This document shows positions 21,343-56,884 of a stretch of DNA of 64,000 nucleotides, one piece after another. Source of the stretch: Frondihabitans sp. PhB188 (lineage in GTDB: Bacteria > Actinomycetota > Actinomycetes > Actinomycetales > Microbacteriaceae). The stretch is from contig NZ_RJUO01000001.1 in the NCBI RefSeq assembly GCF_003752365.1, positions 124,001-188,000 on the forward strand, in the 5' to 3' direction. Within the stretch, counting starts at the first letter, position 1. Each line of letters starts with the position of its first letter. The notes under the pieces were generated by a model. The model searched no databases. It was not told where the DNA came from and saw only the letters and a list, made by a program, of their open reading frames with translations. Made by a program: the position numbers and the translations under genes.

Positions 21343-21429
21343 CCAGAAATTCAAGGAGATCTTCGCCGACCCACTCTAGTGATCCGCATGCCGCCGAAGG
21401 TCGAGGCACATTTCTCCTTGAATTTCTGG
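21343..21429. repeat. Perfect 17-bp inverted repeat with 53-bp spacer
   Basis: Arms CCAGAAATTCAAGGAGA (21343-21359) and its exact reverse complement at 21413-21429. Both are AT-rich compared with the surroundings. The site lies between the MaoC stop and the GH2 promoter, so it could end the upstream transcript, be a regulatory site, or be a small mobile-like remnant. No open reading frame lies inside. Confidence 0.85.
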
Positions 21430-41364: not shown

Positions 41365-41370
41365 CTGCGG

Positions 41371-41750
41371 CGCGAGGTGGCCGTGGGCGTCGGCCCGCGC
41401 GGCGGGGCCTGACGGCGCGGGCCATTTCGCGGTGCGCGGCGGGTCCCGACGGCGCGGACCATCTCGCGGGGTGGCCGTGCGCGTCGGCCCGCGCGGCGGG
41501 GCCTGGCGGCGCGGGCCATCTCGCGAGGCGCGGCGGGAGCGACATCGCGGGCCATTTCGCGAAGTGGCCGTGGGCGTCGGCTCGCGCGGCGGGGCCCGAC
41601 GGCGTGGGCCATCTCGCGGTGCGCGGCGGGGCGTGACGGCGCGGGCCATCTCGCGAGATGGCCGTGCGCGTCGGCCCGCGCGCCCGGGCCCGACGGCGCG
41701 GGCCATCTCGCGGGGCGCGGCGGAGCCTGACGGCGCGGGCCACCTCGCGG
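41371..41750. repeat. Array of 61-bp palindromic elements, cluster A
   Basis: Four exact 61-bp units at 41371-41431, 41465-41525, 41558-41618 and 41652-41712, spaced about 94 bp apart, with extra right-arm fragments between and after them. Each has 12-bp ends CGCGARRTGGCC-like and GGCCATYTCGCG. It fills the gap between the convergent ABC-2-like and MFS genes, and no gene is credible there. Confidence 0.85.
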
Positions 41751-41763
41751 AGGGCGACGCCGC

Positions 41764-43179
41764 CTACGCCACGCGGTGGTCGATGCTCAGCACCGGCACG
41801 TGGTGGCGCACCCGCACGTGCAGCGCCAGGTGCCCGCGGCGCGCCAGCATCACGCCGGCGAAGACGGCCGCGAGCGCCGGCACCCCGCCCGACACCATCA
41901 TGCCGACGTGCACGCCGAAGCTCTGGACGATCCAGCCCATCAGCGGCCCGCCGACGGCCTGACCACCGAGCAGCACGAGGATGTACAGCGACATCACGCG
42001 GCCGCGCACGCCGATGTTCGACGACATCTGCACGAGCGAGTTCGACGCGGTCTGGAACAGCAGCGCCGACATGCCGACGCCGATGAGCACGACGGCGAAC
42101 GCGACGATGTTCGGCATGAGCCCGCCGGCCGCCTGGATGACCCCGGTGACGCCGACGCCGATGACGACGGTGCGGAGCCGCAGGTTGGCGCGCCGGGTCG
42201 ACAGCAGCGCACCGGTGAGGGCGCCGACCGCGACCATGGAGTTGAACAGGCCGTAGCCGCCCGCGCCGACCTTGAACACGACGTCGGCGTACGAGGCGAG
42301 CAGCACCGGCATCGTGAGGCCGAACACGGCGAACACGGCGACCAGAAACACCGGCCAGATGATCGTCGGCTTGCCGACGGCGTAGGCGAGGCCGGCCTTG
42401 AGCGCGCCCTTCTGGCGCGGCGCGGGAGCGGTGCGGAACATCTCTCCGGCCCGGAGCAGCGACAGCATGCCGACCACGAGCAGGCAGGCCGCGCCGTTGA
42501 TGACGAACGCCCAGCCGGCGCCGACCGCGAGCAGCAGGACCCCCGCGATAGCCGGGCCGATCATGCCGCCGAGCTGGAACACCGACGAGTTGACGCTGAT
42601 CGCGTTGCGGAGGTTCTTCGGGCCGACGAGCTCGGTCACGATCACCTGGCGGGCGGGGTTGTCGATGACGGTGACGAGACCGGTGACGAAGGCGATGCCC
42701 CAGACCATCCAGGCCTCGACGACACCCGAGAGGGTCAGGGCCGCGAGGCCGATCGAGAGCACGGCGAAGACCGACTGCGTGATCATCATCAGCATGCGCT
42801 TCGAGACCCGGTCGACGAGCACGCCGCCGAGGAGGCCGAACATGATCATCGGGGCGAACTGCATGGCGACGGTGATGCCGACGGCGGTGGCGCTGCCGGT
42901 GAGCTCGAGCACGAGCCAGTCCTGAGCGACGCGCTGCATCCAGCCGGCGGTCATGGCGACCATGTTGCCGGCCGTCCAGACGCGGAAGTTGCGGACGGAG
43001 AGGGCGATGAAGGTGTGACGCCACGGCGGGCGCTCGGTCACGATCGTGAGCGGTTCGGTAGGGGGGAAGGCAGTCGACGTCGACGATGTCACAGAGAGGT
43101 TTCCAGAGGTCGTGGTGCGAGAGGGAAGATCTCCTTCCACGCTAGGTTCGTCGTTGTCATTCTGTTCCCCTATGGCCAT
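41764..43179 (-). CDS. MFS transporter (EntS/MFS_3-like)
   Basis: A major facilitator with about 12 helices. An N-terminal helix S-V-R-N-F-R-V-W-T-A-G-N-M-V-A follows an unusually long, polar N-terminus (about 55 residues). An internal loop carries G-G-V-L-V-D-R-V-S-K-R after helix 2, as in this group. Likely a drug or metabolite exporter. The start is uncertain: the LysR gene diverges only 38 bp away, so a later GTG (43140 or 43092) may be used and leave room for two promoters. It pairs with the divergent LysR regulator. Confidence 0.8.
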   Translation of the reverse strand: MAIGEQNDNDEPSVEGDLPSRTTTSGNLSVTSSTSTAFPPTEPLTIVTERPPWRHTFIALSVRNFRVWTAGNMVAMTAGWMQRVAQDWLVLELTGSATAVGITVAMQFAPMIMFGLLGGVLVDRVSKRMLMMITQSVFAVLSIGLAALTLSGVVEAWMVWGIAFVTGLVTVIDNPARQVIVTELVGPKNLRNAISVNSSVFQLGGMIGPAIAGVLLLAVGAGWAFVINGAACLLVVGMLSLLRAGEMFRTAPAPRQKGALKAGLAYAVGKPTIIWPVFLVAVFAVFGLTMPVLLASYADVVFKVGAGGYGLFNSMVAVGALTGALLSTRRANLRLRTVVIGVGVTGVIQAAGGLMPNIVAFAVVLIGVGMSALLFQTASNSLVQMSSNIGVRGRVMSLYILVLLGGQAVGGPLMGWIVQSFGVHVGMMVSGGVPALAAVFAGVMLARRGHLALHVRVRHHVPVLSIDHRVA

Positions 43180-43217
43180 AATCAAGGTCATTGGCTTTCG
43201 TAATGCGAGGAGACCGC

Positions 43218-44075
43218 GTGTACGACCCGACCCTGCTCCGCACCTTCCTCGTCGTCGCCGAGACGCACAGCTTCACGCAGGCCGCGCAGCGCCTGGCCAT
43301 CAGCCAGCCGACGGTGAGCCAGCACGTCTCGAAGCTCGAGAAGGCGGCCGGCCGCGTGCTCGTCGCCCGCGACACCCGCGAGGTCGCGCTGACCGACAAC
43401 GGCGACGCCATGGCCGGGTTCGCCCGTACGATCCTGGCCGCGCACGCGGCGGCGGAGAGCTACTTCTCGGGCTCGGCGATGCGGGGGCGGCTGAGGTTCG
43501 GCGCGGCGGACGACCTGGCTATCACGCAGCTGCCGCGGATCCTGCGCCACTTTCGCCAGCTCTACCCCCAGATCAACCTGGAGCTGACCGTCAACCAGTC
43601 GATGCCCCTGCGGCGGCGCCTCGCGTCGGGTCACCTCGACCTCATCTTCGTCAAGCAGAACGCGGGGGAGTTCGACACCGGCACGCGGGTGGCCGGCGAC
43701 CCGATGGTGTGGATGGCGCAGGAGCGGATGCAGCTCGACCCCGACCAGCCGGTTCCGCTGATCACCTACCAGGGGCCCAGCCTCAGCCGGCAGATGGCGA
43801 TCGACGCGCTGGAGGCCGCGGGCCGCACCTGGCGGATCACCTGCAACACGCGCGACGTGAACGGGATCCTGGCGGCGGTGCGCGCCGGCATCGGGGTGGC
43901 GGCGTTCCCGTACTCGCTGATCCCGTCCGACCTGGTGAAGGTGTCGGTGCGGTTCGCGCTGCCCGACCTGGGCGACGTCGACTACGTGCTGCAGGCGAAT
44001 CCGTCGGCCGCGCGCGAGCCGGTCGAGGCCCTGACGAGCGCGATCCTGAGTCGCGGTGTCAGCCGGGCGGAGTGA
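43218..44075 (+). CDS. LysR family transcriptional regulator
   Basis: A 285-residue regulator with the LysR helix-turn-helix at residues 1-60 (L-R-T-F-L-V-V-A-E-T-H-S-F-T-Q-A-A, then S-Q-P-T-V-S-Q-H-V-S-K-L-E). A periplasmic-binding-like effector domain follows (about 85-280). I prefer the GTG at 43218 because GAGGAGA lies five bases upstream. ATG or TTG codons further 5' would also be in frame. It is divergent from the MFS transporter and probably controls it. Confidence 0.8.
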   Translation: MYDPTLLRTFLVVAETHSFTQAAQRLAISQPTVSQHVSKLEKAAGRVLVARDTREVALTDNGDAMAGFARTILAAHAAAESYFSGSAMRGRLRFGAADDLAITQLPRILRHFRQLYPQINLELTVNQSMPLRRRLASGHLDLIFVKQNAGEFDTGTRVAGDPMVWMAQERMQLDPDQPVPLITYQGPSLSRQMAIDALEAAGRTWRITCNTRDVNGILAAVRAGIGVAAFPYSLIPSDLVKVSVRFALPDLGDVDYVLQANPSAAREPVEALTSAILSRGVSRAE

Positions 44076-44085
44076 GATCGTCGTC

Positions 44086-44451
44086 ATGACCCGTCTCGCC
44101 GCATCCCTCGTCGCCCTGCTGGGCACGTCGGGCACCCTGCACTTCGCTCGCCCTCAGACCTTCGACGGAATCGTGCCGAGATCCCTGCCGGGCACCGCCC
44201 GCACCTGGACGCACCTGTCGGGCGCAGCCGAGCTGGTCTGCGCGGCGGCCCTCGCCATGCCGCGCACCCGGCGTCTCGGCGGGGTGCTGACGGCCGCGCT
44301 GTTCGTGGCGGTGTTTCCCGCGAACGTGACGATGGCCGTCGGCGCCCTCCGGAGCCCGCGCGCATCGAACCGGCGCAGGGCGATCGCCGTGGTGCGCCTG
44401 CCGCTGCAGGTTCCGCTCGTCGTCGCGGCTCTCCGCGCGGGTCGCTCGTAA
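44086..44451 (+). CDS. DoxX-like small membrane protein
   Basis: A 121-residue protein with four hydrophobic segments. T-S-G-T-L-H-F-A-R-P near the start and L-S-G-A-A-E-L-V-C-A-A-A-L-A fit a DoxX-like fold. F-P-A-N-V-T-M-A-V lies in the third helix. It is 11 bp after LysR on the same strand but without an obvious coupled start, so operon membership is uncertain. Function unknown. Confidence 0.65.
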   Translation: MTRLAASLVALLGTSGTLHFARPQTFDGIVPRSLPGTARTWTHLSGAAELVCAAALAMPRTRRLGGVLTAALFVAVFPANVTMAVGALRSPRASNRRRAIAVVRLPLQVPLVVAALRAGRS

Positions 44452-44513
44452 CGGAGTGTCAACGTCGCCATACTGGTGTTTCCGCTGATCGCGCCTCACC
44501 CCCTGGAGTTCCA

Positions 44514-46679
44514 ATGCCGAAACTCGTCCACCTCCGTTCGTCCGGAGTCAGCCTGCTCGTCGACATCGCCGACGCCGCGCTGCCGGCGATCGTCCACTGG
44601 GGCGCCGACCTCGGCGAGCTGACCCGGGCCGACGCCGAGGCGCTCGTGCTGGCCAACGTCGAGGCGCGCACCGGCAACATCGTCGACGACCCGATCCGCC
44701 TGGCCCTGGTGCCCGAGCAGCACGTCGGCTGGGCGGGCAAGCCCGGCGTCGCCGGCAACCGCGACGACGGCTCGGCCTGGGCTCCCGCGTTCACCCCCGA
44801 GTCGTCCACCCTCGACGGCGTGGCCCTCGACGGCGCCGCGCTCGGCGTCTTCGTCGAGGTGGGGGCGGGGCTCCTGGTCGTCGAGGCCCGCGACACGGTC
44901 GCCGGCCTGCTGATCACCGTCGAGCTCGAGCTGCTCGCCTCCGGGCTCGTCCGCGCGCGGGCGACCCTCCTGAACGAGGCCCCTGGCCTGTACCGGGTGC
45001 AGGAACTGAACCTCGCCTTCCCCGTGCCACCCCGGGCGAAGGTGCTTCTCGACTTCGCGGGCCGCTGGGGCAAGGAGCGCGTGCCGCAGCGCAACGACTT
45101 CGCCGTCGGCATCCACGAGCGCGAGGGCCGCAAGGGGCGCACCGGCGCCGATGCGGCGACGGTGCTCAGCGCGGGCGTGCCCGGCTTCGGGTTCCGCCGC
45201 GGCGAGGTGTGGGGCGTGCACACGGCGTTCAGCGGCAACCACCGGCACTACGCCGAGCGCCTCTTCACCGGCGCCGCGGTCGTCGGCGGGGGAGAGTTCC
45301 TGCTTCCCGGTGAGATCAGGCTGGAGCAGGGCGGCGCCTACCGGTCGCCGTGGGTCTACGCGGCCTACGGCGACGGGCTCGACGATCAGGCGGCGCGGTT
45401 CCACCGCTGGCTGCGGTCGCGCGAGCAGCACCCGACGCGGCCGCGCCCGATGACCCTGAACGTGTGGGAGGCCGTCTACTTCGACCACGACCTCGGGCGC
45501 CTGACCGACCTCGCCGACCGCGCGGCCCAGGTCGGCGTCGAGCGGTACGTGCTCGACGACGGGTGGTTCCGCGGGAGGCGCGACGACACCCGCGGACTCG
45601 GCGACTGGTACGTCGACGAGGGCGTCTGGCCCGACGGGCTCGGGCCGCTGATCGATCACGTCAACGGCCTCGGCATGGAGTTCGGGCTGTGGTTCGAGCC
45701 CGAGATGATCAGCGAGGACAGCGACCTGGCGCGCGCCCACCCGGAGTGGATCCTGCAGACCGCAGACCGGCTGCCGGTGCGCGCCCGCAGCCAGCAGGTG
45801 CTGAACCTCGGGATCCCCGAGGCGTTCGACCACATCCTCGAGCGGATGTCGGCGCTGCTCGACGAGTACGCCATCGCCTACATCAAGTGGGACCACAACC
45901 GCGACCTGTTCGACGCGGGCACTCCTCCCGTCGGCGCGCCCGGCGTCCACGCGCAGACGCTCGCCGCCTACGCGCTGATGGACGAGCTGAAGCGCCGCCA
46001 CCCGGGCCTCGAGATCGAGGCCTGCGCGTCGGGCGGCGGCCGCGTCGACCTCGGCGTCATCGAGCGCACCGACCGGGTCTGGGTCTCGGACTGCATCGAC
46101 CCGCTCGAGCGCCAGGACATGAACCGCTGGAGCATGCAGCTGCTGCCGCCCGAGCTGCTCGGCTCGCACATCGGCTCGGGGGTCAGCCACACGACCGGGC
46201 GCGCGCACCCGCTGTCGTTCCGTGCCGGCACGGCGATCTTCGGCCACTTCGGCATCGAGTGGGACCTCCGCCAGGCGCAGGAACTCGAGATGGCCGAGCT
46301 GACCGAGTGGGTCGCGCTCTACAAGCGCTCGCGCGCCCTGATGCACACCGGCGTCGTCGTGCGCTCCGACACCGAGGACCCCACGCTGAACGTGTACGGC
46401 GCCGTGGCGGGCGACCGGTCGGAGGCCCTGTTCTTCGTCGCGTTCACGGGCACGTCGATCACGGCGCCGGCGGGGCGCTTCGTGCTGCCGGGCCTCGACC
46501 CGGCGGCGCGCTACCGCGTCGAGCCGATCCTGATCGGCGAGCCCGAGCCGGGCCTCCGGCCTCCGTCGTGGTGGCCCGGCGTCGACCTGCCGGGGGCTGC
46601 CCTCGCCTCGGCGGGCCTGCAGGCGCCGATGTCGTTCCCCGAGCGCGTCATCCCCCTCCGGGTCACGCGCCTCCCGTGA
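44514..46679 (+). CDS. Alpha-galactosidase (GH36)
   Basis: A 721-residue GH36 enzyme. The N-terminal beta-sandwich runs to about residue 290. The TIM barrel starts near M-T-L-N-V-W-E-A and has D-D-G-W-F, nucleophile Asp460 in I-K-W-D-H-N-R-D and acid/base Asp526 in W-V-S-D-C-I-D-P. A C-terminal beta domain follows. No signal peptide, so it acts inside the cell on alpha-1,6-galactosides such as melibiose or raffinose. A Shine-Dalgarno-like CTGGAG precedes the ATG. No transporter or regulator is directly linked. Confidence 0.9.
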   Translation: MPKLVHLRSSGVSLLVDIADAALPAIVHWGADLGELTRADAEALVLANVEARTGNIVDDPIRLALVPEQHVGWAGKPGVAGNRDDGSAWAPAFTPESSTLDGVALDGAALGVFVEVGAGLLVVEARDTVAGLLITVELELLASGLVRARATLLNEAPGLYRVQELNLAFPVPPRAKVLLDFAGRWGKERVPQRNDFAVGIHEREGRKGRTGADAATVLSAGVPGFGFRRGEVWGVHTAFSGNHRHYAERLFTGAAVVGGGEFLLPGEIRLEQGGAYRSPWVYAAYGDGLDDQAARFHRWLRSREQHPTRPRPMTLNVWEAVYFDHDLGRLTDLADRAAQVGVERYVLDDGWFRGRRDDTRGLGDWYVDEGVWPDGLGPLIDHVNGLGMEFGLWFEPEMISEDSDLARAHPEWILQTADRLPVRARSQQVLNLGIPEAFDHILERMSALLDEYAIAYIKWDHNRDLFDAGTPPVGAPGVHAQTLAAYALMDELKRRHPGLEIEACASGGGRVDLGVIERTDRVWVSDCIDPLERQDMNRWSMQLLPPELLGSHIGSGVSHTTGRAHPLSFRAGTAIFGHFGIEWDLRQAQELEMAELTEWVALYKRSRALMHTGVVVRSDTEDPTLNVYGAVAGDRSEALFFVAFTGTSITAPAGRFVLPGLDPAARYRVEPILIGEPEPGLRPPSWWPGVDLPGAALASAGLQAPMSFPERVIPLRVTRLP

Positions 46680-46758
46680 CCGCGGCGGCCTCGGTCGTGT
46701 GAGGGTCCGGCCACGCCGTAGGCTTGCTGACGGCCATTCCTGAACCTGAGGAGAACCG

Positions 46759-48204
46759 ATGGCGAACCGCGCTCTCTCGACGACCGTCGACACCTACTTC
46801 GAGATCACGAAGCGGGGGTCGACCTGGGGCAGGGAGGTCCGCGGCGGCCTCGTGACCTTCGTCACGATGGCCTACATCGTGATCCTGAACCCCTTGATCC
46901 TCGGCGGCTTCTCGGCCGATCAGGCGTCGAAGGACATCCTCGGCAACTGGCTGCAGAACGCCCAGGTCGGCGCCGTCACGGCCCTGACCGCCGGTGTGAT
47001 GACCATCCTGTTCGGCGTCGTCGCCCGCATGCCGTTCGGCCTCGCGGCGGGCCTCGGCATCAACTCGTTCCTCGCGGTCAGCGTCGTGAAAGACGTCACC
47101 TGGCCCGAGGCGATGGGCCTCGTCGTGATCGAGGGCCTCGTGATCGTGATCCTCGCGGCCACGGGCCTCCGCACCATGATCTTCAAGGCCGTGCCCGCGG
47201 CCCTCAAGACGGCGATCACCGTCGGCATCGGCCTGTTCATCGCGTTTATCGGGCTGGTGGACGCGGGCTTCGTGCGGACGTCGGGGGAGGCATCGCCCCC
47301 GGTGCAGCTCGGCGATGCCGGGTCGATCCAGACGCTGCCGACGATCGTCTTCGTGATCGGCGTGATCGTCATCGGCGTGCTGATGGCCCGCAGGGTCAAG
47401 GCGGCGATCCTGATCGGCATCGTGGCGACGACGATCATCGCCATCATCCTCAACGCGATCTTCAAGGTCCCGGAGTCGCTCGGGACCAACCCGGCAGGCT
47501 GGAACCTCAACGCGCCCGTCCTGCCGACCGGTATCGTCTCTCTGCCCGACCTCTCGCTCGTCGGCCAGTTCGACCTCTTCGGCGCCTTCTCGCGCATCGG
47601 CGGCGTCGCCGCGACGATGCTCGTCTTCACCCTCGTCTTCACGAACTTCTTCGATGCGATGGGCACCATGACCGGCCTCGCCCGCCAGGCGGAGATCGCG
47701 GCCCCCGACGGCACGTTCCTGCGGCTCCGCTCGGCCCTCATCGTCGAGGGCGTGGGCGCCGTGGCCGGAGGCGCATCGTCGGGCTCGTCGAACACGGTGT
47801 TCGTCGAGTCGGCGGCCGGCATCGGCGAGGGCGCCCGCACGGGCCTCGCATCGGTCGTGACCGGCGTGCTCTTCCTGCTCGCGATGTTCCTGACGCCGCT
47901 GACCCAGGTGGTGCCGCTCGAGGTGGCCGCCGCGTCGCTCGTCGTCGTCGGCGCCCTGATGGTGTCGCAGATCCGGCTCATCGACTGGGGCGAGTTCTCC
48001 GTCGCGCTGCCGGTGTTCCTCACCGTCATCGTCATGCCGTTGACGTACTCCATCTCGAACGGCATCGGCGCGGGCTTCATCTCGTGGGTGCTGATCCGAT
48101 CGCTGTCCGGCAAGGCACGCGAGATCAGCCCGCTGCTCTGGATCGTGGCCGTCGGATTCCTCGTCTACTTCGCTCGGGGGCCCATCCAGGCCTGGTTGGG
48201 CTAG
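46759..48204 (+). CDS. NCS2 family purine permease (AzgA-like)
   Basis: A 481-residue protein with about 12-14 membrane helices and the AzgA-like guanine/hypoxanthine permease pattern: T-M-A-Y-I-V-I-L-N-P at the first helix, G-L-A-A-G-L-G-I-N-S-F, F-F-D-A-M-G-T-M-T-G-L-A and G-G-A-S-S-G-S-S-N-T. Likely imports hypoxanthine, guanine or adenine. The strong ribosome site GAGGAG precedes the ATG, and TAGGCT at 46719 gives a leadered transcript. Confidence 0.85.
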   Translation: MANRALSTTVDTYFEITKRGSTWGREVRGGLVTFVTMAYIVILNPLILGGFSADQASKDILGNWLQNAQVGAVTALTAGVMTILFGVVARMPFGLAAGLGINSFLAVSVVKDVTWPEAMGLVVIEGLVIVILAATGLRTMIFKAVPAALKTAITVGIGLFIAFIGLVDAGFVRTSGEASPPVQLGDAGSIQTLPTIVFVIGVIVIGVLMARRVKAAILIGIVATTIIAIILNAIFKVPESLGTNPAGWNLNAPVLPTGIVSLPDLSLVGQFDLFGAFSRIGGVAATMLVFTLVFTNFFDAMGTMTGLARQAEIAAPDGTFLRLRSALIVEGVGAVAGGASSGSSNTVFVESAAGIGEGARTGLASVVTGVLFLLAMFLTPLTQVVPLEVAAASLVVVGALMVSQIRLIDWGEFSVALPVFLTVIVMPLTYSISNGIGAGFISWVLIRSLSGKAREISPLLWIVAVGFLVYFARGPIQAWLG

Positions 48205-48248
48205 CGCGGGGCGCGCGTCGCCCGGCCGGCGCGCCGGCGGCTTCGTGG

Positions 48249-48491
48249 CGCGAGGTGGCCGTGGTGGGCGCGGCCGCGTGGCGCGAGGTGGGCGTGGTGG
48301 GCGCGGCCGCGTGGCGCGAGGTGGCCGTGCGTGTCGTCGGGCCGGCGTCGCGCCGACGCGCAGGGCCATCTCGGGTCGGTCGCGCGGTGCGCCGGTGGGG
48401 CTGCACGCCGTGGTGGGCGCGGCCGCGTGGCGCGAGGTGGCCGTGCGTGTCGTCGGGCCGGCGTCGCGCCGACGCGCAGGGCCATCTCGCG
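48249..48491. repeat. 61-bp palindromic elements, cluster B
   Basis: Two full 61-bp units at 48315-48375 (right end degraded to CGGG) and 48431-48491, plus additional left-arm fragments at about 48249 and 48280. They lie between the convergent NCS2 and DipZ genes. The internal sequences of the two full copies are identical by eye, so the duplication is recent. Confidence 0.85.
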
Positions 48492-48556
48492 GAGGCGACC
48501 GCGCCGGGCGGCGGGCGCCGGGCGGCGGGCGCCGAGCGGCTGGCGCCGCACGCCAC

Positions 48557-49639: not shown

Positions 49640-50317
49640 TTAGTCGGGGATGGCCCGTTGGATCCCGTCGGTGGCGTTGAACGCGAGCGCGACGGCGAGG
49701 CCCAGCACGACCACGCCGGCGCCGACGCGGATGGCGCGCTGCCGCGTGCGGAACGCCTTGACCCGCTCGGCGACGCCACGGCCGGCGAGCGCGAAGATCA
49801 GGAGGGGCGTGGCGGTGCCGATCGCGAATGCGACGGTGAGCACGACGGTGTCGCCGCCGATCCTGCCGGTCGCCCCCGCCACCGTGATGGCGGCGAGCAC
49901 GGGGCCCGCGCACGGCACGTAGACCGCGCCGAGGATGAGGCCGAGCAGGAACCCGCCGCGGTTGGTGCCGACCTGCCGCTGCGGCACCCACGAGAACGGC
50001 TTCTCGAGCAGGTGCTGGAAGCGCGGCACGATCATGCCGACGCCGAGCAGCACGAGGGCGGCGAGGCCGACCCACCGGATGATGTCCTGCGGCAGCGGCA
50101 GGGCGCTCAGCACGACGGAGCCCAGCAGCGTGAAGACGCTGAAGCTCAGAGCGAGACCCGCTACGACCAGGAACGGACGGCTGCCGACGTCGCGCATGTT
50201 CTCTCTCGCGCCCTGCGCGCCGCCAGACAGGAAGATGACCGGGAGCACCGGCAGGATGCAGGGCGAGATGCCGGTGATCAGACCACCGACGAGCCCCAGG
50301 AAGACGAGGGTAACCAT
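49640..50317 (-). CDS. Cytochrome c biogenesis protein DipZ, N-terminal CcdA-like part
   Basis: A 225-residue CcdA-type membrane domain with six helices, starting M-V-T-L-V-F-L-G and holding [11 protein letters not shown] in the first helix and C-A-G-P-V-L-A-A in the fourth. The two Cys-Pro/Cys-Ala sites are the electron-transfer cysteines. In intact DipZ proteins this domain feeds electrons from thioredoxin to the periplasmic thioredoxin-like half. Here it ends early at A-I-P-D-stop. TACGCT seven bases before the ATG suggests leaderless transcription. Confidence 0.8.
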
Positions 50318-50394
50318 CGTGTCGAGCGTACGGCCGGGGCGAGGTGACCACGGGCGTGGGTCGGAGTTCCTGCGCGATTCGTAAGATCTGTCGC

Positions 50395-50409
50395 TCTCAC
50401 AGGGTGAGA
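50395..50409. promoter_or_regulatory. TCTCAC-AGG-GTGAGA palindrome upstream of SDR gene
   Basis: Perfect six-base arms with three-base spacer, 80 bp before the Shine-Dalgarno ATG. A 13-of-15 match to the motif at 52261-52275 before the IclR gene makes a shared regulator likely. Confidence 0.55.
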
Positions 50410-50488
50410 CGACGGCGGGTGCACGGCCGAACCGTTTGGTGTGATCAGTGGACTCCGCGAAGGGCGCGGAGGGTCGAGGAGGACCATC

Positions 50489-51276
50489 ATGAGCACCGAC
50501 GCCAGAAGACCGTCGTCGTCACCGGAGCAGCCCGCGGGATCGGAGAGGGCATCGCCCTCCGTCTTGCGAAAGACGGGCACCACGTCGTCGTCGCCGACCT
50601 CGGCGTGATGGAGAGCGACCTGCACCAGACCGCCAAGGCCATCAACGACGCGGGCGGCACGGCCACGGCCGTCGTCGCCGACGTCACGGACGAGGCCTCC
50701 GTCACCTCGCTGGTCGCCGCCGCCGCCGAAGCCGGAGACGGGCTCGACGCCTTCGTCGCGAACGCGGGCATCGCGCAGGTCGAGGCGCTGCTCGACTACG
50801 ACCTCGCCGACTTCCAGAAGATCCTCGACGTCAACATCACCGGTGTCTTCCTGAGCTACCGCGCCGCCGCGAAGCAGTTCATCGCGCAGGGCACCCCGGG
50901 CAAGATCATCGGCGCCGCGTCGATCGTCGCGTTCCGGCCGTTCGCGTACCTCGGGCCGTACTCGGCGACGAAGTGGGCCGTCCGCGGCCTGACGCAGGCC
51001 GCCGCCATGGAGTGGGCGGAGTACGGCATCACCGTCAACGCCTACGGCCCCGGCATCGTCGGCACGGCGATGTGGGACCTCATCGACGAGAAGCTCGCCG
51101 CCCGCGACGGCCTGCAGAAGGGCGAGGCGCTGGCCGAGAACGCCAAGAGCATCCTGCTCGGCCGCGTCTCGGTGCCGAACGACGTGGCGCAGCTCGTGTC
51201 GTTCCTCGCCGGCCCCGACTCGGACTACATCACGGGGCAGACGATCCTGGTCGACGGCGGGATCCAGTTCTCGTAG
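50489..51276 (+). CDS. SDR family oxidoreductase (acetoin/diacetyl reductase-like), apparent frameshift at the start
   Basis: A classical [20 protein letters not shown], catalytic S and Y-S-A-T-K, and the C-terminal [13 protein letters not shown]. The only ATG with a proper ribosome site (GGAGGACC) is at 50489, but it is one base out of phase with the rest of the gene. Insertion of one base after about 50498 would give M-S-T[10 protein letters not shown]. As written, the gene lacks an in-frame start. Either a natural one-base deletion or a sequence error. Most resembles acetoin reductases, which is inference. Confidence 0.7.
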
Positions 51277-51348
51277 CCGGACGCGGCCGAGACTCCAGCG
51301 TCGGCCGCGAGAAGCGACGTCGAAAGGGCTCGCACCGGAGTCTCGCCG

Positions 51349-51567
51349 TCAGGCACCGGGCTTGCGGCTCAGAGCGCGGGCGCGTGTGAACCGGGAGAAG
51401 CCCAGCGCCATGCAGGCAGATGGCGGAATGGCCAGGACGATTCCCAGGAGGTGGCTCACCCCGGCTGCAGCCGCGAAGGACAGCCACCACAACGGAAGGA
51501 CGGCCACCCAGAAGAGGATCGCGGTGGCGATCAGGCGATCCTGAACGCTGCGGTTTGCTCGGCTCAT
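51349..51567 (-). CDS. Small two-helix membrane protein, possible immunity partner
   Basis: A 72-residue basic protein with two hydrophobic helices (about 10-30 and 34-52). Its ATG overlaps the stop of the secreted protein upstream (ATGA), so it is translationally coupled. Size, topology and coupling are like membrane immunity proteins of small secreted toxins, but no sequence match is claimed. The local composition is AT-richer than the surroundings. Confidence 0.55.
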   Translation of the reverse strand: MSRANRSVQDRLIATAILFWVAVLPLWWLSFAAAAGVSHLLGIVLAIPPSACMALGFSRFTRARALSRKPGA

Positions 51568-52169
51568 TTCGGCGCCGATGTCCGGCACTGGATCGTGCTG
51601 CCGCCCTTGACGTCGTACCAATAGAGGTTGCGCTTCTGCGAGCAGACACCCTTCTTGTGAATGTATGAGACGGCCACACCGACCACGATTCCCGCAAGGG
51701 CACAAGCTACCGCGCCGACTCCAGGGATGGCGCAGATGGCAGCCACGATTCCCGCAGTGATCAACGTGTTCGAGAGGACGTTTTGATCGAACTGATTGAA
51801 CGAGAACCAATAGCCGTACTTTGTCTTGCCGACACCGAGCCGGGAGTCACGCGTGATCTCTTCGCCAACCTCGCCAATGGACTCTGGATTGACCAACGTC
51901 AGGCTGAGATCGGGCGTCACATGAAACGTGGCAGTCTCGACGCCAGCGGAACGCGAGTATTCACGGTCGAGCTCCGTCGAGTTGAATTCGCGATAGGCCT
52001 GGGCCCACTCCGCGGCGGTAAAAGTCGCTTGGACGTTGTGCGCCGGTTGCGGAACCGCTACTTCGATGGGCGCTGAAGGGGTCGGCGCGGCCAGGGCCGG
52101 AGCGACCCCGATGGCAGCAAGTCCGACCACGAGAGACGACGTCATGGCGACGCGTTTTGACCAGTTCAT
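51564..52169 (-). CDS. Secreted hypothetical protein with signal peptide and glycine-rich hydrophobic C-terminal segment
   Basis: A 201-residue protein with a clear signal peptide (residues 1-28, ending A-L-A-A). A mature polar region follows, then a long hydrophobic Gly/Ala stretch (about 137-170) and two Cys pairs, C-A-I-P-G-V-G-A-V-A-C and a tail pair (C-S-Q and Q-C-R-T). No family is recognised. The combination with the small membrane gene resembles secreted antimicrobial or membrane-active proteins with cognate immunity, which is inference. A good Shine-Dalgarno (GAAAGAGGAT) precedes the ATG. Confidence 0.6.
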   Translation of the reverse strand: MNWSKRVAMTSSLVVGLAAIGVAPALAAPTPSAPIEVAVPQPAHNVQATFTAAEWAQAYREFNSTELDREYSRSAGVETATFHVTPDLSLTLVNPESIGEVGEEITRDSRLGVGKTKYGYWFSFNQFDQNVLSNTLITAGIVAAICAIPGVGAVACALAGIVVGVAVSYIHKKGVCSQKRNLYWYDVKGGSTIQCRTSAPK

Positions 52170-52319
52170 TCGATCCTCTTTCTCAGGCGCTTCGTCGTGC
52201 CGAGATCCGCCACTATGCCATATTCCGCTGTGACATGTAAATACTAAAAAAGTCGACGGTTCTCACAGAATGAGAGACATGGGAGGCCGTATCGGCCGGC
52301 GGGCGCGCACACTGGGGGC
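52170..52319. other. AT-rich divergent promoter region
   Basis: The most AT-rich stretch seen in the window. It probably holds the leftward promoter of the secreted-protein pair (-35-like TTTACA and -10-like CATAGT around 52215-52245) and the rightward leaderless promoter of IclR (CACACT at 52308-52313). The palindrome at 52261-52275 lies between them. Confidence 0.5.
52261..52275. promoter_or_regulatory. TCTCACAGAATGAGA palindrome upstream of IclR
   Basis: Five-base arms, 13 of 15 bases shared with the site at 50395-50409. It is placed about 33 bp upstream of the IclR -10-like hexamer. Candidate IclR operator that would also reach the divergent secreted-protein promoter. Confidence 0.55.
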
Positions 52320-52808
52320 ATGCGAATCGATGAAGCTTCGACACTTGCCCGACCCTCCGAAGCGCCACCCGCTCCGACGTCGCCGATCGTGGCGCCCACC
52401 GCGGGGCGGGGCCCCTCCGCCACGGCCCGCGAGTCCGGCGTCGCCACCGTCGAGAAGACGCTGGCCATCCTGGAGGCCGTCGCCGAGCGCGGCGGAGCCA
52501 CGGCGCGCGAGGTCTCCGACGCCCTCGGCTACCCGAGACCGACCGTGTACCGGCTGCTCCAGGCGCTCGTCCAGAGCGACTACCTCGTGCACCTCACAGG
52601 AGAGCACCGCTTCGAGCTGGGCTACAAGCTCGACCGGCTGGGCGTCTCGCTGCACCGCCAGGTCGGCATCCCGACGTCGGTGCGAGCGGAGGTGTCGCGC
52701 CTGCACTCGCTGACGCAGACGGCGGCGTACTTCGCGTCTACCGCGGAGCCGACGTCGTCGTCGCCTACGTCGTCGACTCGCCGGCGCACCCGCGGCTCAC
52801 CCCGTTGA
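52320..52808 (+). CDS. IclR family regulator, N-terminal DNA-binding part (split by frameshift)
   Basis: After a Pro/Ala-rich extension (about 1-40), the IclR winged helix reads T-V-E-K-T-L-A-I-L-E-A-V-A-E-R-G, then R-P-T-V-Y-R-L-L-Q-A-L and L-G-Y-K-L. After A-A-Y-F-A at about 52735 the frame turns to nonsense and stops at 52808. The other frame then gives the expected V-Y-R-G-A-D-V-V-V-A-Y. Restoring one missing base (likely G, making GCGGTC) joins it with the next feature. CACACT sits six bases before the ATG, so the promoter is intact. As written, the DNA-binding half alone would be made. Confidence 0.75.
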   Translation: MRIDEASTLARPSEAPPAPTSPIVAPTAGRGPSATARESGVATVEKTLAILEAVAERGGATAREVSDALGYPRPTVYRLLQALVQSDYLVHLTGEHRFELGYKLDRLGVSLHRQVGIPTSVRAEVSRLHSLTQTAAYFASTAEPTSSSPTSSTRRRTRGSPR

Positions 52809-54121
52809 ATTTCGGATTCCACGAGGCCGCCCACGCGACGGCCTTCGGCAAATTCCTGCTGGCCGGGATGTCGAGCGAGCAGCGCGACCAGTACCTCGAC
52901 GTCCACGGACTCGGCCGCCTCACTCCGACGACCAAGACCGCCCGCGCCGATCTGCTCGCCGAGCTGGTCGAAGTCGGCAACTCGGGCGTCGCCTGGGAGA
53001 ACGAGGAGTTCGTCACCGGCCAGACCTGCGCCGCAGTCGGAGTCCGCAACGGAGCCGGCATGATCGTCAGCTCCGTCGCGATCCGTGCGCCGTCGGGTGA
53101 GCTCACCCCCCGCCGCCGCTCCGAGGTCGAGCGCCACCTGCGCGATGCCGCGGCCGCCGCCGCCCGAGCCAAGCTCGCCGCCGCCACCCCCGCGACCGTC
53201 TTCGCCCTTGACGCCGACGGCGACCTCGTGCGCCTCCCGGCCGTCGGCGACACCGCCACCACCGTCGCGGCCGACGTCACCGCCTACGCCGTCGATGCCA
53301 CGGCGACCTCCTACGCCGTGACGCCCGCCGGCCTCGTCCGCGTGAGCGGAACCGGCGCGACGACGAGCGTCCTCACGTCGGCGACGGCGGCCGCCTCGTC
53401 GGCCGTCGCCCTCGACGCCGCCGGAACCGTCTACATCTCGAGCGGCACCAGGGTCTTCAAGGTGCTCGCCGGCACCACGAAGGCGATCGCGGTCGCCACG
53501 CTTCCAGTCGCGCCCGTCGGCTTCGGCGTCGCCCCGAACGGCACGGTCCGCGTGCTCGAGAACGTCGCCGGCGCGCACCAGGTCGTCGCCTATACGACCT
53601 CGGGCCGGACAGCGACGCGCGCGATCGCCGACTCCGCCTACTCCACGCCGGTGTCGGGCACGTTCGACGCCAAGGGAAACCTCTACTACGCCAGCATCTC
53701 GACCGGCGGCAGCGTCTCCGTCTCGTGTGCGCGCGTCGCCAAGGGCGGCACCGCGCCGGTCTCGCTCGGCGGCGGCTACGTCGTGGGCGGCGTCGGCCTC
53801 TCGGGCGACTTCTCGCTTCTGCAGGCGGCAGGATGGTGCACGTCGTACGGCCTCGGCTCCGGTACCTGCACGCCCGACCTGGCCGTCGCGGCCGTCCAGT
53901 CGACCGACCTCGCGGGCACCACGACGTCGATCCCCGTCGACTCGCTCGCGCTGGCCACCGACGACGAGCGCTTCCCCGCGGCGACGACGTCGGTCACGAC
54001 CGACACCGCCGGAGCCCTCTACGTCGGCCAGACGACGGGCCTCGTGCGGTACGACGCCGCGGGCGGTGCGCCGACGCGGCTCGCCGACGGCGCGTTCACC
54101 GAAGTGCAGCTGACCAAGTAG
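52805..54121 (+). CDS. IclR effector domain fused to a C-terminal beta-propeller-like domain
   Basis: The frame continues the split IclR protein. The effector domain shows H-E-A-A-H-A-T-A-F-G-K-F-L-L, G-V-A-W-E-N-E-E and a later R-N-G-A-G-M-I-V-S-S-V-A, and ends near S-E-V-E-R-H-L. Where normal IclR proteins stop, about 300 residues follow with a repeating pattern of about 40 residues (D-x-x-G-x-V/L-Y/V-R-x-x, then T-x-x-A-T-x-x-x). It looks like about seven NHL-type propeller blades, with one Cys pair late in the repeat. No signal peptide separates the parts. Only a TTG could start this frame alone, so I treat it as the second half of one gene. Confidence 0.65.
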   Translation: MNFGFHEAAHATAFGKFLLAGMSSEQRDQYLDVHGLGRLTPTTKTARADLLAELVEVGNSGVAWENEEFVTGQTCAAVGVRNGAGMIVSSVAIRAPSGELTPRRRSEVERHLRDAAAAAARAKLAAATPATVFALDADGDLVRLPAVGDTATTVAADVTAYAVDATATSYAVTPAGLVRVSGTGATTSVLTSATAAASSAVALDAAGTVYISSGTRVFKVLAGTTKAIAVATLPVAPVGFGVAPNGTVRVLENVAGAHQVVAYTTSGRTATRAIADSAYSTPVSGTFDAKGNLYYASISTGGSVSVSCARVAKGGTAPVSLGGGYVVGGVGLSGDFSLLQAAGWCTSYGLGSGTCTPDLAVAAVQSTDLAGTTTSIPVDSLALATDDERFPAATTSVTTDTAGALYVGQTTGLVRYDAAGGAPTRLADGAFTEVQLTK

Positions 54122-54157
54122 GCCCCGCCCGACGGGCACTTGCTGCGCCCACGGCAG

Positions 54158-54221
54158 AGCCCCTCCGCTTCGGCACGATCCCGCCTGCGGGATGCAGGGG
54201 GTGTGCCGAAGCGGAGGGGCT
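54158..54221. terminator. Bidirectional hairpin terminator
   Basis: Perfect 19-bp arms AGCCCCTCCGCTTCGGCAC (54158-54176) and their exact complement (54203-54221). An inner ATCCCGC/GCGGGAT hairpin lies in the loop. Between the convergent IclR-propeller and PEBP genes. No T-tract. Confidence 0.75.
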
Positions 54222-54236
54222 GGGTGGCTGCGAGCG

Positions 54237-54779
54237 CTACTTCGCCTGGAACCAGGGCGTGATGACGCCCCGCGCGAGGGTGTGGCTGAACAGGTTGAAG
54301 CCGAGGAAGCCGGGCGTGGCACTCGCGTCGATGCCCAGCGTGTCGACGTCGAGAGCGTGCACGGCGATGAAGTACCGGTGCCTGCCGTGGCCCTCCGGGG
54401 GAGCCGCGCCGAGGTAGTGGGCGAGACCCCCGTCGTTCTTGAGCTGGAATGCGCCGGATGGCAGGCCCGACCCCTCGGCATCGCCCGCGCCGGAGGGCAA
54501 TGACGTCGTTGTTACGGGCACGTCGACGACGGCCCAGTGCCAGAAGCCCGAGGCGGTGGGGGCGTCGGGGTCGTACACCGTGACGGCGAAGCTCTTGGTG
54601 CCCTCGGGAAATCCCGACCAGCTGAGCTGCGGACTGACGTCGTCTCCGCCGGCGCCGAAGATGCCGGAGACCTGCGGGGTGGGCAGCTCGGACCCGTCGC
54701 CGACGTCGGTCGAGGTGAGGTCGAAAGCCGGCACCTGGGCGATGTCGTCGTAGGGGTTCGTGCGTGAGGTCGTGCTCAT
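54237..54779 (-). CDS. YbhB/YbcL family Raf kinase inhibitor-like (PEBP) protein
   Basis: A 180-residue phosphatidylethanolamine-binding protein-like member: D-D-V-S-P-Q-L-S-W, V-T-V-Y-D-P-D-A-P-T-x-S-G-F-W-H-W, and G-H-G-R-H-R-Y-F-I-A-V-H-A-L. These make the ligand-binding pocket. A good ribosome site (AAGGAGAACAC) precedes the ATG. Function in bacteria is generally unknown. No export signal is visible. Confidence 0.85.
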   Translation of the reverse strand: MSTTSRTNPYDDIAQVPAFDLTSTDVGDGSELPTPQVSGIFGAGGDDVSPQLSWSGFPEGTKSFAVTVYDPDAPTASGFWHWAVVDVPVTTTSLPSGAGDAEGSGLPSGAFQLKNDGGLAHYLGAAPPEGHGRHRYFIAVHALDVDTLGIDASATPGFLGFNLFSHTLARGVITPWFQAK

Positions 54780-54865
54780 GTGTTCTCCTTTGGTCCGTCG
54801 TCCCTTCTACACGCGTCGCCTGGATCGCGGGTTGGTGCTGCGGCGTCGCCGCCCGGGTCGTGTCG

Positions 54866-54926
54866 CGCGAGATGGCCGTGCCGGTCGTTTCGGCGCGGGC
54901 GGCCAGACGAGCAGGGCCATCTCGCG
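54866..54926. repeat. 61-bp palindromic element, copy C
   Basis: Exact 61-bp unit with ends CGCGAGATGGCC and GGCCATCTCGCG. It lies directly before the hydrolase remnant and replaces its expected N-terminal coding region. Confidence 0.85.
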
Positions 54927-54941
54927 AGAGCGCGCGGCGAA

Positions 54942-55374
54942 CCGGCCGTCGTGATCGGCCACTTCACAGGGCGTGTCCTGGCGCAGGAACTCGCACTCGC
55001 CCACCCCGACGTCGTCGCCGGGCTCGTCCTCGTCGACACCGGCCCGAACATGCACGAGCACGGCGACGTGGGGGCGATCCTGCGCACCATCCGCACGGCG
55101 TGGTCGCCCGCCCTGGCCGAGGGGATCCTCGACCGCTCGTTCGCGTCGCCGCCACCGCCCGAGGTGCGCGCCTCGACGCTCGCCCACGCCCTCGGCGTCG
55201 AGCGGCGGGCCGCCCTCGACTTCGCTCCCCGTCTCGCGGCGCTGCGGGCCATGCCGGTCGAGGTCGTGCACGGGCGGCTCGACCCCGTGCGGACGGTCGA
55301 GCAGGCGACGCGTTTCGCCGACCTCCTGGGCTCGCCGCTGACCGTGCTGGACTGCGGTCACACGCCGCCGTGCC
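54942..55374 (+). pseudogene. Alpha/beta-hydrolase remnant
   Basis: The frame starts inside a hydrolase: V-V-I-G-H-F-T-G-R-V-L-A-Q-E-L corresponds to the nucleophile elbow, but the usual Ser (G-H-S-x-G) is Phe. V-V-H-G-R-L-D-P-V contains the acid Asp and D-C-G-H-T-P-P the His. The first about 90 residues and the C-terminal end are missing, and 61-bp palindromic elements sit on both sides (54866-54926 and 55384-55444). The catalytic serine loss and double truncation indicate a dead gene. Confidence 0.75.
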
Positions 55375-55383
55375 GGTCGCGTT

Positions 55384-55444
55384 CGCGAGATGGCCCTCGC
55401 TGTCACCGCGCGCGGGCCGGGGCGACGGCGGGGGCCATCTCGCG
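55384..55444. repeat. 61-bp palindromic element, copy D
   Basis: Exact 61-bp unit with the family ends (CGCGAGATGGCC, GGCCATCTCGCG). It begins within about 10 bp of the point where the hydrolase homology ends. Confidence 0.85.
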
Positions 55445-55454
55445 GCGCGGGGGC

Positions 55455-55482
55455 CTGTGGAGAGCGCGCGGCACCCTGTGGA
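55455..55482. promoter_or_regulatory. Paired CTGTGGA boxes upstream of DUF559 gene 2
   Basis: CTGTGGAGAGC at 55455 and 55476, 21 bp apart, followed by 30 bp and the -10-like CAGTCT at 55513-55518, six bases before the ATG. Same spacing as in front of DUF559 gene 1. Confidence 0.6.
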
Positions 55483-55524
55483 GAGCACCAGCGCAGGAAC
55501 TCCCGGCTCGGCCAGTCTGTGGGT

Positions 55525-56427
55525 ATGCGCCCCCGACCCCTTCCTCCGTCTCTGAGCACTCATCCGTTCGTTGTCCGCGACGCCCTCCCTCTCGTCTCGC
55601 CCGAGCGCCTCCGCCGCCGCGATCTGCTGCGCCCTGCGCGCGGCCTCCGAGCGCACGTGTCGCTCGCGGGGCTGCCTCCGCCCGTGCTCCTGGCCGGGGT
55701 GCTGGGCCCGAACCAGCACTTCAGCCACACGACGGCCGCCGCTCTCTGGGGCATGCCCGTCCCGGCGGTCGACGGCGTCCACACGACGACGATCGGGACG
55801 GGGTCGGTCACTCGACGGGACGGCTTCGTCGGCCATCGGATCACGGCCGAGCGGGCGCGGGTGGCCGTGCTGCGCGGCATCCGCGTGTCCGACCGCGTCG
55901 ACGCGTGGGCGGAATGCGCGACGCTCCTCTCAGTCGACGAGCTCGTCGCCGCAGGCGACCACCTCGTCGGGCCGGCGGGCTGCGACCTCGACGATCTCCG
56001 CGCCGCTGCCGACCGCCGGCGCGGGCAGCGCGGAGTGCGAGCTCTGTGCGCGGCGCTCGACCAGGTGCGCGTCGGGTCGGAGTCGCCGCGCGAGACGCGC
56101 CTCAGGCTCCAGCTGATGCGGGAGAGGTTCCGTCTGCCGCTGCTCAACTGCGCGATCCACGACGCCGACGACCGCTTCGTGGCGCGGCCCGACATCATCT
56201 TCGGCCGGGAACGGGTGTGCGTCGAGTACGACGGCGACCACCACCGCACGAACCGGACGACGTACCGCGACGACAAGCGCCGCCGCGAGGCACTCGCCGA
56301 CGCCGGGTGGACCGTGCTCTATCTCTCGGACGACGATCTCCGCGGCCCCCACTGGGCGGCGTTCGTCGGACGGCTGCGTCGCGCGCTGGCTCGCGGCGAG
56401 GCCTCGCGCCGTCGGCCCGCGCCGTGA
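55525..56427 (+). CDS. DUF559 / AbiEi-like nuclease-fold protein 2
   Basis: A 300-residue paralogue of the protein at 26224. The N-terminal region contains N-Q-H-F-S-H-T-T-A-A-A-L-W-G. The C-terminal PD-(D/E)XK-like part reads A-R-P-D-I-I-F, then C-V-E-Y-D-G-D-H-H-R, W-T-V-L-Y-L. The similarity to gene 1 is moderate, so the duplication is not recent or the copies came separately. ATG 55525 is supported by CAGTCT six bases upstream. The gene sits between palindromic elements and a 28-base poly-C run. Confidence 0.7.
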   Translation: MRPRPLPPSLSTHPFVVRDALPLVSPERLRRRDLLRPARGLRAHVSLAGLPPPVLLAGVLGPNQHFSHTTAAALWGMPVPAVDGVHTTTIGTGSVTRRDGFVGHRITAERARVAVLRGIRVSDRVDAWAECATLLSVDELVAAGDHLVGPAGCDLDDLRAAADRRRGQRGVRALCAALDQVRVGSESPRETRLRLQLMRERFRLPLLNCAIHDADDRFVARPDIIFGRERVCVEYDGDHHRTNRTTYRDDKRRREALADAGWTVLYLSDDDLRGPHWAAFVGRLRRALARGEASRRRPAP

Positions 56428-56453
56428 TGCCGTAACCCCGGCCCCGGCCCCGG

Positions 56454-56481
56454 CCCCCCCCCCCCCCCCCCCCCCCCCCCC
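56454..56481. repeat. Poly-C run of 28 bases
   Basis: Twenty-eight consecutive C, preceded by CCCCGG repeats from about 56437. It lies just after the DUF559 gene 2 stop. It may be a slippage-prone tract or an assembly artefact. Confidence 0.9.
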
Positions 56482-56491
56482 GGCGTGAGCC

Positions 56492-56702
56492 CGTGAGGTG
56501 GCCCTGGCCGTCGGGCGGGTGGGGTGCCGGCGACGCGGAGGGCCATCTCGCGGGGTGTGGCGGGTGGGGTCGCGCCGGCGGATGCGGCGGCGTCGGGCCG
56601 CTTGGCCGTGCCGGGCCGGTGAGCCGGCGGGCCGGCGAGCCCGCGAGGTGGCCCTGGCCGTCGGGCGGGTGGGGTGCCGGCGACGCGAAGGGCCATCTCG
56701 CG
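56492..56702. repeat. 61-bp palindromic elements, cluster E
   Basis: Two full units at 56492-56552 and 56642-56702, 150 bp apart and nearly identical inside. An extra right-arm fragment (GGCCACCTCGCG) ends near 56766. They occupy the intergenic stretch between DUF559 gene 2 and DUF1345. No gene is credible there. Confidence 0.85.
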
Positions 56703-56884
56703 GGGGCTGGCGGGTGGGGCTCGCGCAGCGGCGGACGCGCCGGCGACGCGGAGGGCCACCTCGCGCGGCCCGAGCAGCGCGAGCACGCACGCGGACGACA
56801 CGCGCACCGCGCGCCCCCGCGCGCGGACGACGCGACACGGCGTGTCGCCGCGCGCCGGGCCCGGGCGCGCGCGACGATCAGCCC

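Follow-up and report, generated by a model that had tools for sequence, protein, structure and literature searches.

Palindromic elements and a DUF559 gene at the locus

The window analysed here is a stretch of 64,000 nucleotides from the genome of Frondihabitans sp. PhB188 (contig NZ_RJUO01000001.1, positions 124,001 to 188,000). It contains ten copies of a short intergenic palindromic element and, between two of these copies, a gene of the DUF559 family on the forward strand (55525-56427) encoding a protein of 300 amino acids, designated P0001. Four copies form a first cluster at 41371-41431 (57-bp core at 41373-41429), 41465-41525, 41558-41618 and 41652-41712, and two are located at 48315-48375 and 48431-48491. 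The remaining copies lie at 54866-54926, at 55384-55444, 80 bp upstream of the start of the DUF559 gene, at 56492-56552, 64 bp downstream of its stop, and, as a tandem copy, at 56642-56702.

An earlier reading of the window from its letters alone, referred to here as the sequence-only reading, had given these ten starts and a length of exactly 61 bp; all starts were correct and every copy measured 61 bp. Its consensus was matched exactly at seven places (12 matches over the two strands, with 0 expected from 100 shuffles), while the copies at 41465 (two mismatches), 48315 and 56492 (one mismatch each) deviate from it. The single-arm fragments that it described amid the copies were recovered as 20-bp half-sites. 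Solo right half-sites were located on the reverse strand at 41447-41466 (a piece of a half-unit, consisting of loop and right arm, amid the copies), 41540-41559, 41634-41653 (abutting the next element), 41728-41747 and 56744-56763, and a left arm fragment was located on the forward strand at 48251-48270, 5' of the copy at 48315. The first cluster, starting at 41371, has a repeat unit of L-17-R-17-R (left and right arms with spacings in bp) and a period of 93-94 bp.

Genome-wide distribution and anatomy of the elements

A genome-wide count of the motif had been proposed by the sequence-only reading. Searching the whole genome (G000, 3.79 Mb) with the pattern CGCGAGRTGGCC-N6-GTC-N19-GAC-N6-GGCCAYYTCGCG, allowing no more than three mismatches over 30 fixed bases, yielded 75 matches per strand, whereas a reversed-pattern control yielded 0. 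The pattern is nearly self-complementary, so that the matches on the two strands, among those listed, mostly represent the same places, giving approximately 75 elements. The claim of constant length was upheld when a free gap of 22-52 bp was allowed and at least one A-type arm required: among the matches listed, the core length was the same except at C1:349731 and C2:110351, where the elements are one base shorter. A detailed set comprised 240,730 bases of the genome chosen around matches (6% of the total), with genes predicted by a codon-usage caller made for this analysis and not a published one. None of the 73 copies identified with up to five mismatches fell inside a called gene, in sequence of which 86% is coding, in agreement with the intergenic location originally described.

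The core of the element is 57 bp in length, CGAGRTGGCC-N6-GTCG-N17-CGAC-N6-GGCCAYCTCG, with each 20-bp half-site made up of CGAGRTGGCC, six variable bases and GTCG. Facing half-sites are separated by 17 bp in 73 cases and by 16 bp in four. A length of 57 bp describes the conserved unit better than 61 bp does, since neighbouring elements abut exactly at this boundary (a gap of 0 between right and left arms in eight cases). A variable interior of 37 bp had been described; this was true only in part, as GTC at positions 19-21 and GAC at positions 41-43 are nearly invariant. Across the 73 copies, positions 4, 8-10, 19, 41, 43, 51-54, 57 and 58 are invariant. Clustered elements either abut directly, as in the eight cases above, or alternate with a half unit of loop and right arm, the right arms of half units being 17 bp apart in four cases and 16 bp apart in one. 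A further nine gaps between elements measure 37-38 bp, the size of a half unit, and 29 isolated arms were seen. No target-site duplication was found in 21 isolated elements, direct repeats of at least 5 occurring near the edges of two, with a control rate of 9%; a miniature inverted-repeat transposable element (MITE) with target duplication was ruled out for these 21.

Elements are concentrated between convergent genes. The 36 element-bearing gaps comprised 20 convergent, 11 co-directional and five divergent gaps, compared with 23, 60 and 34, respectively, of 117 element-free gaps (Fisher test for convergent gaps, 8e-5). Eight foldings of five window copies, on one or both strands, were more stable than shuffled sequences, with z scores from -2.4 to -8.3. 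Covariation between the arms was not detected: with one element per site (34 sites), 0 of 30 mirrored position pairs exceeded shuffled pairs at p 0.05, and with all 73 copies pair 6/56 alone reached p 0.03. The covariation set excludes three rows with overlapping right arms (7-8 mismatches), the two elements whose loop is 16 nt and the element at C1:24201. Arm pairing is thus not the property being maintained; the symmetry resembles that of a protein-binding site in duplex DNA, which suits non-covarying arms better than does a hairpin. An RNA element was rejected, the foldings being stable yet the arms without covariation; the two Rfam matches obtained for 41000-57000 were both under gathering scores and neither was on an element.

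The DUF559 protein encoded between the elements

The sequence-only reading concluded that the elements must rely on a factor encoded elsewhere. This is probably wrong, and the partner of the elements is probably the DUF559 protein encoded amid the window copies. A comparison of gene neighbours in this genome and in Frondihabitans sucicola NBRC 108728 (G005) placed the DUF559 gene between elements in both. P0001 contains an AbiEi-like region (residues 60-167) and a predicted Vsr/EDxHD-type PD-(D/E)XK nuclease domain (approximately residues 185-290). The former was matched by a PADLOC AbiEi model (E 1.5e-4), with no Pfam AbiEi domain, and 16 of 28 relatives give a match to one of the AbiEi models. 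An alignment of 28 proteins revealed E190, D223 and H240 to be invariant and E234 and D250 to be at least 90% conserved; in our reading these residues would correspond to the E-D-H-D motif of EDxHD enzymes. The only sequences in the PDB with E < 0.1 to P0001 were 3hrl and 3r3p, the latter being the catalytic domain of the homing endonuclease I-Bth0305I. These are the nearest solved relatives of the nuclease domain by sequence, and 3r3p was also returned by fold using Foldseek on a weak model (ranks 3 and 4, with probability 1.00, E 8.5e-3 and a template modelling score, relative to target length, of 0.65).

According to a review, I-Bth0305I, a Vsr-like EDxHD enzyme, dimerises on a target that is almost 60 bp long (PMC3943268). 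AbiEi is described as binding 23-bp inverted repeats 3 bp apart in its own promoter, and Rv2827c as binding 23-bp repeats 13 bp apart in its own promoter (PMC7319586). This suggests, by analogy, that both parts of P0001 have relatives acting on long, paired-site DNA. The analogies have limits. I-Bth0305I is a phage enzyme of a mobile intron, whereas P0001 is encoded by a chromosomal gene in which the nuclease is fused to an AbiEi-like region, and in Frondihabitans it is the site and not the gene that is dispersed. P0001 may resemble AbiEi antitoxins in its matches to PADLOC AbiEi models and in the similar overall size of its putative inverted-repeat sites (PMC7319586), but differs in that here a nuclease is fused, the sites are dispersed over the genome and no DUF1814 toxin was identified when 16 window proteins from around the gene were scanned against Pfam. 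Relatives of P0001 were present in three of 72,556 plasmid records and in 0 of 50,697 phage records, and because of this near absence the gene looks chromosomal and long-resident. None of 473 stretches matching the pattern in viral contigs was confirmed.

Palindromes at DUF559 genes of the Micrococcales

Of the 89 genomes available for the order Micrococcales, 63 encode relatives of P0001. The seven genomes of the genus contain 18 genes with PF04480, most of which had inverted repeats of other sequence nearby in a control-free scan. Eighty-eight DUF559 loci (L099-L186) were assembled, from which 12 without a tblastn match to P0001, four removed by length filters and two duplicates were dropped, leaving 70. 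The 12 include L100 and two loci with matching palindromes on both sides (L099 and L101), so the following count is not inflated by their removal. At 18 of the 70 loci, same-arm palindromes flanked the gene on either side at distances of no more than 400 bp. The same test was positive for 29 of 4830 mismatched flank pairs, ten of which join related genes (L112/L113/L119, L137/L146 and L155/L158), and for 0 of 140 other genes (Fisher test, 5e-10), these controls being drawn from 12 regions at chosen round coordinates, one per genome in 12 genomes. Among these 18 two-sided loci, 17 have an upstream palindrome whose end is 59-144 bp from the start of the gene, and 15 have a downstream same-arm copy that begins 0-37 bp past the stop codon. 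Palindromes lay near the gene on both sides at 21 of 70 loci compared with two of 140 controls; a single palindrome was present within 400 bp upstream at 49 of 70 loci compared with 30 of 140 controls, and within 400 bp downstream at 42 compared with 43.

A graded palindrome score of at least 11 was obtained upstream of 44 and downstream of 28 of the 70 loci. The null, in which each flank was shuffled once by a first-order Markov procedure, yielded 1 and 0, respectively. Concentric CGA..TCG ends were observed in 50 of 72 scored palindromes and at 98 of 3600 random centres. The length of the CGA..TCG-ended palindromes was 56-58 bp in 36 of the 50, where among nested windows the one nearest 57 was chosen; the raw best windows measured 51-66 bp in 56 of 72. 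When half-sites were anchored on these ends, conservation extended to position 4 (mostly G), position 9 (C in 56 of 72) and position 17 (G in 55 of 72). The shared ends, the length of approximately 57 bp and these conserved positions indicate that the geometry is common to DUF559 loci, with the middle of the arm private to each gene.

Further families and other features of the window

Arms taken from the flanks of other DUF559 genes predicted dispersed families. The TTCAAGGAGA arm of another DUF559 gene of the same genome (C4:387765) identified 16 elements of 72 or 73 bp genome-wide (control 0), and none of the 15 whose surroundings were read overlaps a called gene. One of these, of 73 bp, lies in the window at 21350-21422. 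The AGAAGTGGGGCA arm, from genes in another family of the order, identified 14 elements in genome G093 and seven in G111 with up to three mismatches (control 0), each count including the two beside the gene. The prediction was positive in all three genomes in which it was tried genome-wide, with arms picked among the clearest. By eye, many copies of the TTCAAGGAGA family (L187-L201) contain a near-central stretch with GATC, which suggests an additional conserved part.

Two further families are represented in the window. An intact second DUF559 gene on the forward strand (26224-27135) encodes a protein of 303 amino acids that is 40% identical to P0001, and has 57-bp CGAG...CTCG palindromes of a different family upstream (26006-26062) and downstream (27206-27262); one more copy of the upstream palindrome was seen, seemingly partly decayed. 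A 58-bp CGAGACTCCA palindrome with one base off in its right arm lies at 51288-51345, and the same arm is found beside two DUF559 loci of sister species, L157 and L114.

Twenty-eight consecutive C residues (56454-56481) lie just before the element at 56492. The interval 54927-55383, bracketed by two elements, appears on reading to hold the middle and end of a putative alpha/beta hydrolase remnant, the beginning apparently missing; the scan of window proteins gave no Pfam match for 54964-55341. The 11-mer GCGCAGGAACT occurs 13 times in the window, with 0.05 expected (e.g. at 8513, 12044, 23381, 54981, 55491 and 63923), and 52 times in 240 kb of this genome. Its occurrences are genic and intergenic and on both strands; it is a DNA-level motif.

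Comparison with sister species

The remaining genomes of the genus are designated G001 to G006. Elements are located on both sides of the P0001 ortholog in G000, G002 and F. sucicola (G005), the orthologs of the latter two keeping CGAGATGGCC with different inner bases. Upstream of the orthologs in G001, G006 and G004 are CGAGATCGCA arms, in palindromes of 57, 58 and 48 bp, respectively, and in G001 also downstream. Elements of the window family were not found in G001, G003 or G006 at the stringency used. A scan of the whole collection with the pattern returned F. sucicola (four of five stretches) and one 51-bp match in Pseudacidovorax.

A convergent gap common to two species holds an element in each (C4:471627 and G005:1269529) between orthologous neighbours that are 93% and 81% identical. 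Each element carries the inner sequence of its own species, which suggests at the level of sequence that element populations may be kept in step with the local protein. The gap at C2:556117 contains an element in G000 and in G005, where an extra gene is present, and none in G001, G003 or G006. Unrelated palindromes were seen by eye at this gap in G002 and G004, and that of G002 holds CGAGGAGAA, as does the palindrome beside its DUF559 gene L104. The exact insertion point could not be read, the neighbouring DNA differing too, and in the empty-site comparison at C3:514472 homology with sister species stops before the element. A putative macro-domain gene occupies the C2:556117 gap (L085, L230, L231) in G005 and G006 only, and is followed by the element in G005 and not in G006.

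Relationship to known repeat systems

The sequence-only reading likened the elements to repetitive extragenic palindromes (REPs), bacterial interspersed mosaic elements (BIMEs) or very small MITEs. A REP/BIME-like family with local tandem spread was borne out; membership of the REPs, BIMEs or MITEs was not, because no Y1 transposase, fixed GTAG/GTGG tag or target-site duplication was found. PF01797, the family of the REP-associated tyrosine transposases (RAYTs) and the sole transposase family searched, was sought at the suggestion of that reading and was present in 0 of seven genus genomes, with five of 14 control genomes positive. The GTGG tag is not fixed: across 73 left arms, position 7 is occupied by A 46 times and by G 27 times. 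Membership of the RAYTs and their REP doublets forming hairpins (REPINs) was ruled out by the PF01797 result, the lack of a fixed tag and the lack of covariation.

REPs of the REPIN-RAYT system have a 5' tetranucleotide GTAG/GTGG beside a short palindrome (PMC3686654). Such elements are described as short intergenic inverted repeats, mostly downstream of genes and in tandem clusters, with a fixed spacing per class; elements of the same kind flank the partner gene, and a genome may contain multiple families (PMC3116915, PMC3686654, PMC3733652). The combination of constant length and variable interior, thought unusual by the sequence-only reading, is not in itself unusual, REPIN doublets too having fixed spacing (PMC3116915). 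The elements described here have in common with them an intergenic dispersed population of short inverted repeats located mostly downstream of genes, fixed spacing, tandem clusters, several families per genome and a putative partner gene, here DUF559 and not RAYT, that lies between elements of its own. They differ in the proposed partner, a DUF559 nuclease with no Y1/HUH transposase found, in having no fixed tag, and in their 20-bp bipartite, non-covarying half-sites and a length of approximately 57 bp common across gene families. CGTC-tagged REPs are described in PMC3733652 as palindromic repeats without a dedicated transposase, with stems of 8-9 bp and loops of 4-5 bp, from five phyla that do not include Actinobacteria. 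The two groups are alike as repetitive palindromes without a known transposase and differ in stem and loop sizes and in phyla. A search of titles and the starts of abstracts in the open-licence PMC literature, excluding preprints, found nothing linking DUF559 genes to such palindromic repeats.

Proposed mechanism and alternative explanations

The system is best read as REPIN-RAYT-like with an unrelated enzyme. The elements are likely to be symmetric 57-bp sites, scattered over the genome, that are recognised by the DUF559 protein encoded between two of them, gene and sites forming a homing-like selfish pair. The elements, their geometry, the gene linkage with its generality and the predicted dispersed families are observed features, and recognition of the sites by the DUF559 protein is strongly suggested. 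In the proposed mechanism, an AbiEi-like region and a Vsr/EDxHD-type nuclease domain are fused in one DUF559 protein, two protomers of which would bind both 20-bp half-sites of the double-stranded element. The nuclease would cut at or beside the element, and repair would copy elements to further intergenic locations or alongside those already present. A selfish pair acting in trans would thus be made up of a sequence-specific nuclease and the sites that belong to it; selection would maintain these sites as replicators, and the host would tolerate them mostly where genes converge. We infer binding, cutting and copying, the latter two from the relatives of the nuclease domain and from the tandem arrays.

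An operator under autoregulation would also place a palindrome before the gene: the AbiEi-like part would bind a 57-bp site in its own promoter, dispersed copies would form a regulon or serve as decoys, and the nuclease would act elsewhere, for instance on invading DNA. The upstream palindromes of 17 of the 18 two-sided loci are suitably positioned, and the own-promoter repeats of AbiEi and Rv2827c total near 57-59 bp (PMC7319586). This explanation is nevertheless unlikely, as a same-arm copy follows the stop codon in 15 of those loci, most copies lie off promoters (20 of 36 element gaps convergent and five divergent, against 23 and 34 of 117), and tandem arrays and species-limited copy numbers fit spreading better. 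A regulon of promoter operators was disfavoured by the element positions. The enrichment in convergent gaps and the stable foldings of the window copies could instead reflect a host function at 3' ends, the elements being bidirectional terminators or nucleoid or supercoiling sites conserved by chance. Such a function is quite improbable, given that the arms do not covary, the sequence is conserved beyond the needs of a hairpin, three sister genomes (G001, G003 and G006) yielded no elements at the stringency applied and arms specific to each DUF559 gene would be left unexplained.

An AbiEi-like part joined to a Vsr-like nuclease would be in keeping with self/non-self marking or defence, in which the nuclease would spare, or be held by, chromosomal elements and cut DNA lacking or carrying them, and a Caulobacter DUF559 protein has been reported to damage DNA upon loss of a solitary methylase (PMC12907096). 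No methylase or toxin was identified in the scan of 16 window proteins around the gene, relatives occur in 0 phage and three of 72,556 plasmid records, and the dispersed copies predicted from flanks would be unexplained; this alternative is very improbable. MITEs (RUP, NEMIS, Correia and similar, some of them named in PMC3733652) are short, non-coding, multi-copy elements with terminal inverted repeats. The elements resemble them in these respects, and are intergenic and variable in copy number, so that they might be ordinary MITEs of an unrelated transposase for which DUF559 genes are mere landing places; the transposase search covered PF01797 only. Against this stand the constant 57 bp, a length very short for a transposon, the absence of a duplicated target site, and an association seen repeatedly, each time with other arms, at many DUF559 genes but at 0 of 140 control genes, making it the least probable of the alternatives, with hardly any chance of being correct.

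Several observations weigh against the reading of the elements as sites of a DUF559 nuclease. The Pfam DUF559 match of P0001 (residues 225-272) is just over the cut-off, its AlphaFold model is weak (mean predicted local distance difference test score 55.6, with residues 1-119 below 50), and the two best Foldseek matches are long mitoribosomal proteins of Toxoplasma. The strict two-sided test was failed by 52 of 70 loci, and lone palindromes are not rare beside control genes, the downstream excess being approximately twofold. Arms become more alike with protein identity only where the latter exceeds about 55%; when all 465 pairs were considered, the Spearman correlation between arm distance and protein identity was -0.11 and not significant (permutation p 0.10). 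The arms of L148 and L152, from the same genome, had 0 copies in the 240 kb (6% of the genome) searched, a scan that recovered just one of the 16 TTCAAGGAGA copies. Genome G004 contains ten GAGATGGCC elements (e.g. L202, L204 and L206), none beside any DUF559 gene seen, and the arms upstream of its P0001 ortholog are CGAGATCGCA and not GAGATGGCC; an orphan population left after a change of specificity or loss of the partner is possible. All of these comparisons used one genome per species.

Significance

These data point to a nuclease-linked palindromic repeat system of an undescribed kind that is probably selfish. There is perhaps an even chance that it represents an undescribed class of genome-resident selfish systems, common in the Micrococcales, in which hundreds of DUF559 genes would each have a private population of sites of approximately 57 bp, spread by cutting and repair, with coevolution of protein and site. 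CGTC REPs are an example of REP-like repeats described without a dedicated enzyme (PMC3733652), and related DUF559 enzymes could be the missing partner of such repeats. A large family of unassigned chromosomal nucleases gains a concrete candidate DNA partner, together with a rule whereby a palindrome beside a DUF559 gene predicts a dispersed family. If the proposed mechanism is true, the system would be a nuclease-based counterpart to REPIN-RAYT and a second, independent origin of REPIN-like populations, and would supply nucleases whose recognition sites are long, symmetric and simple to read off.

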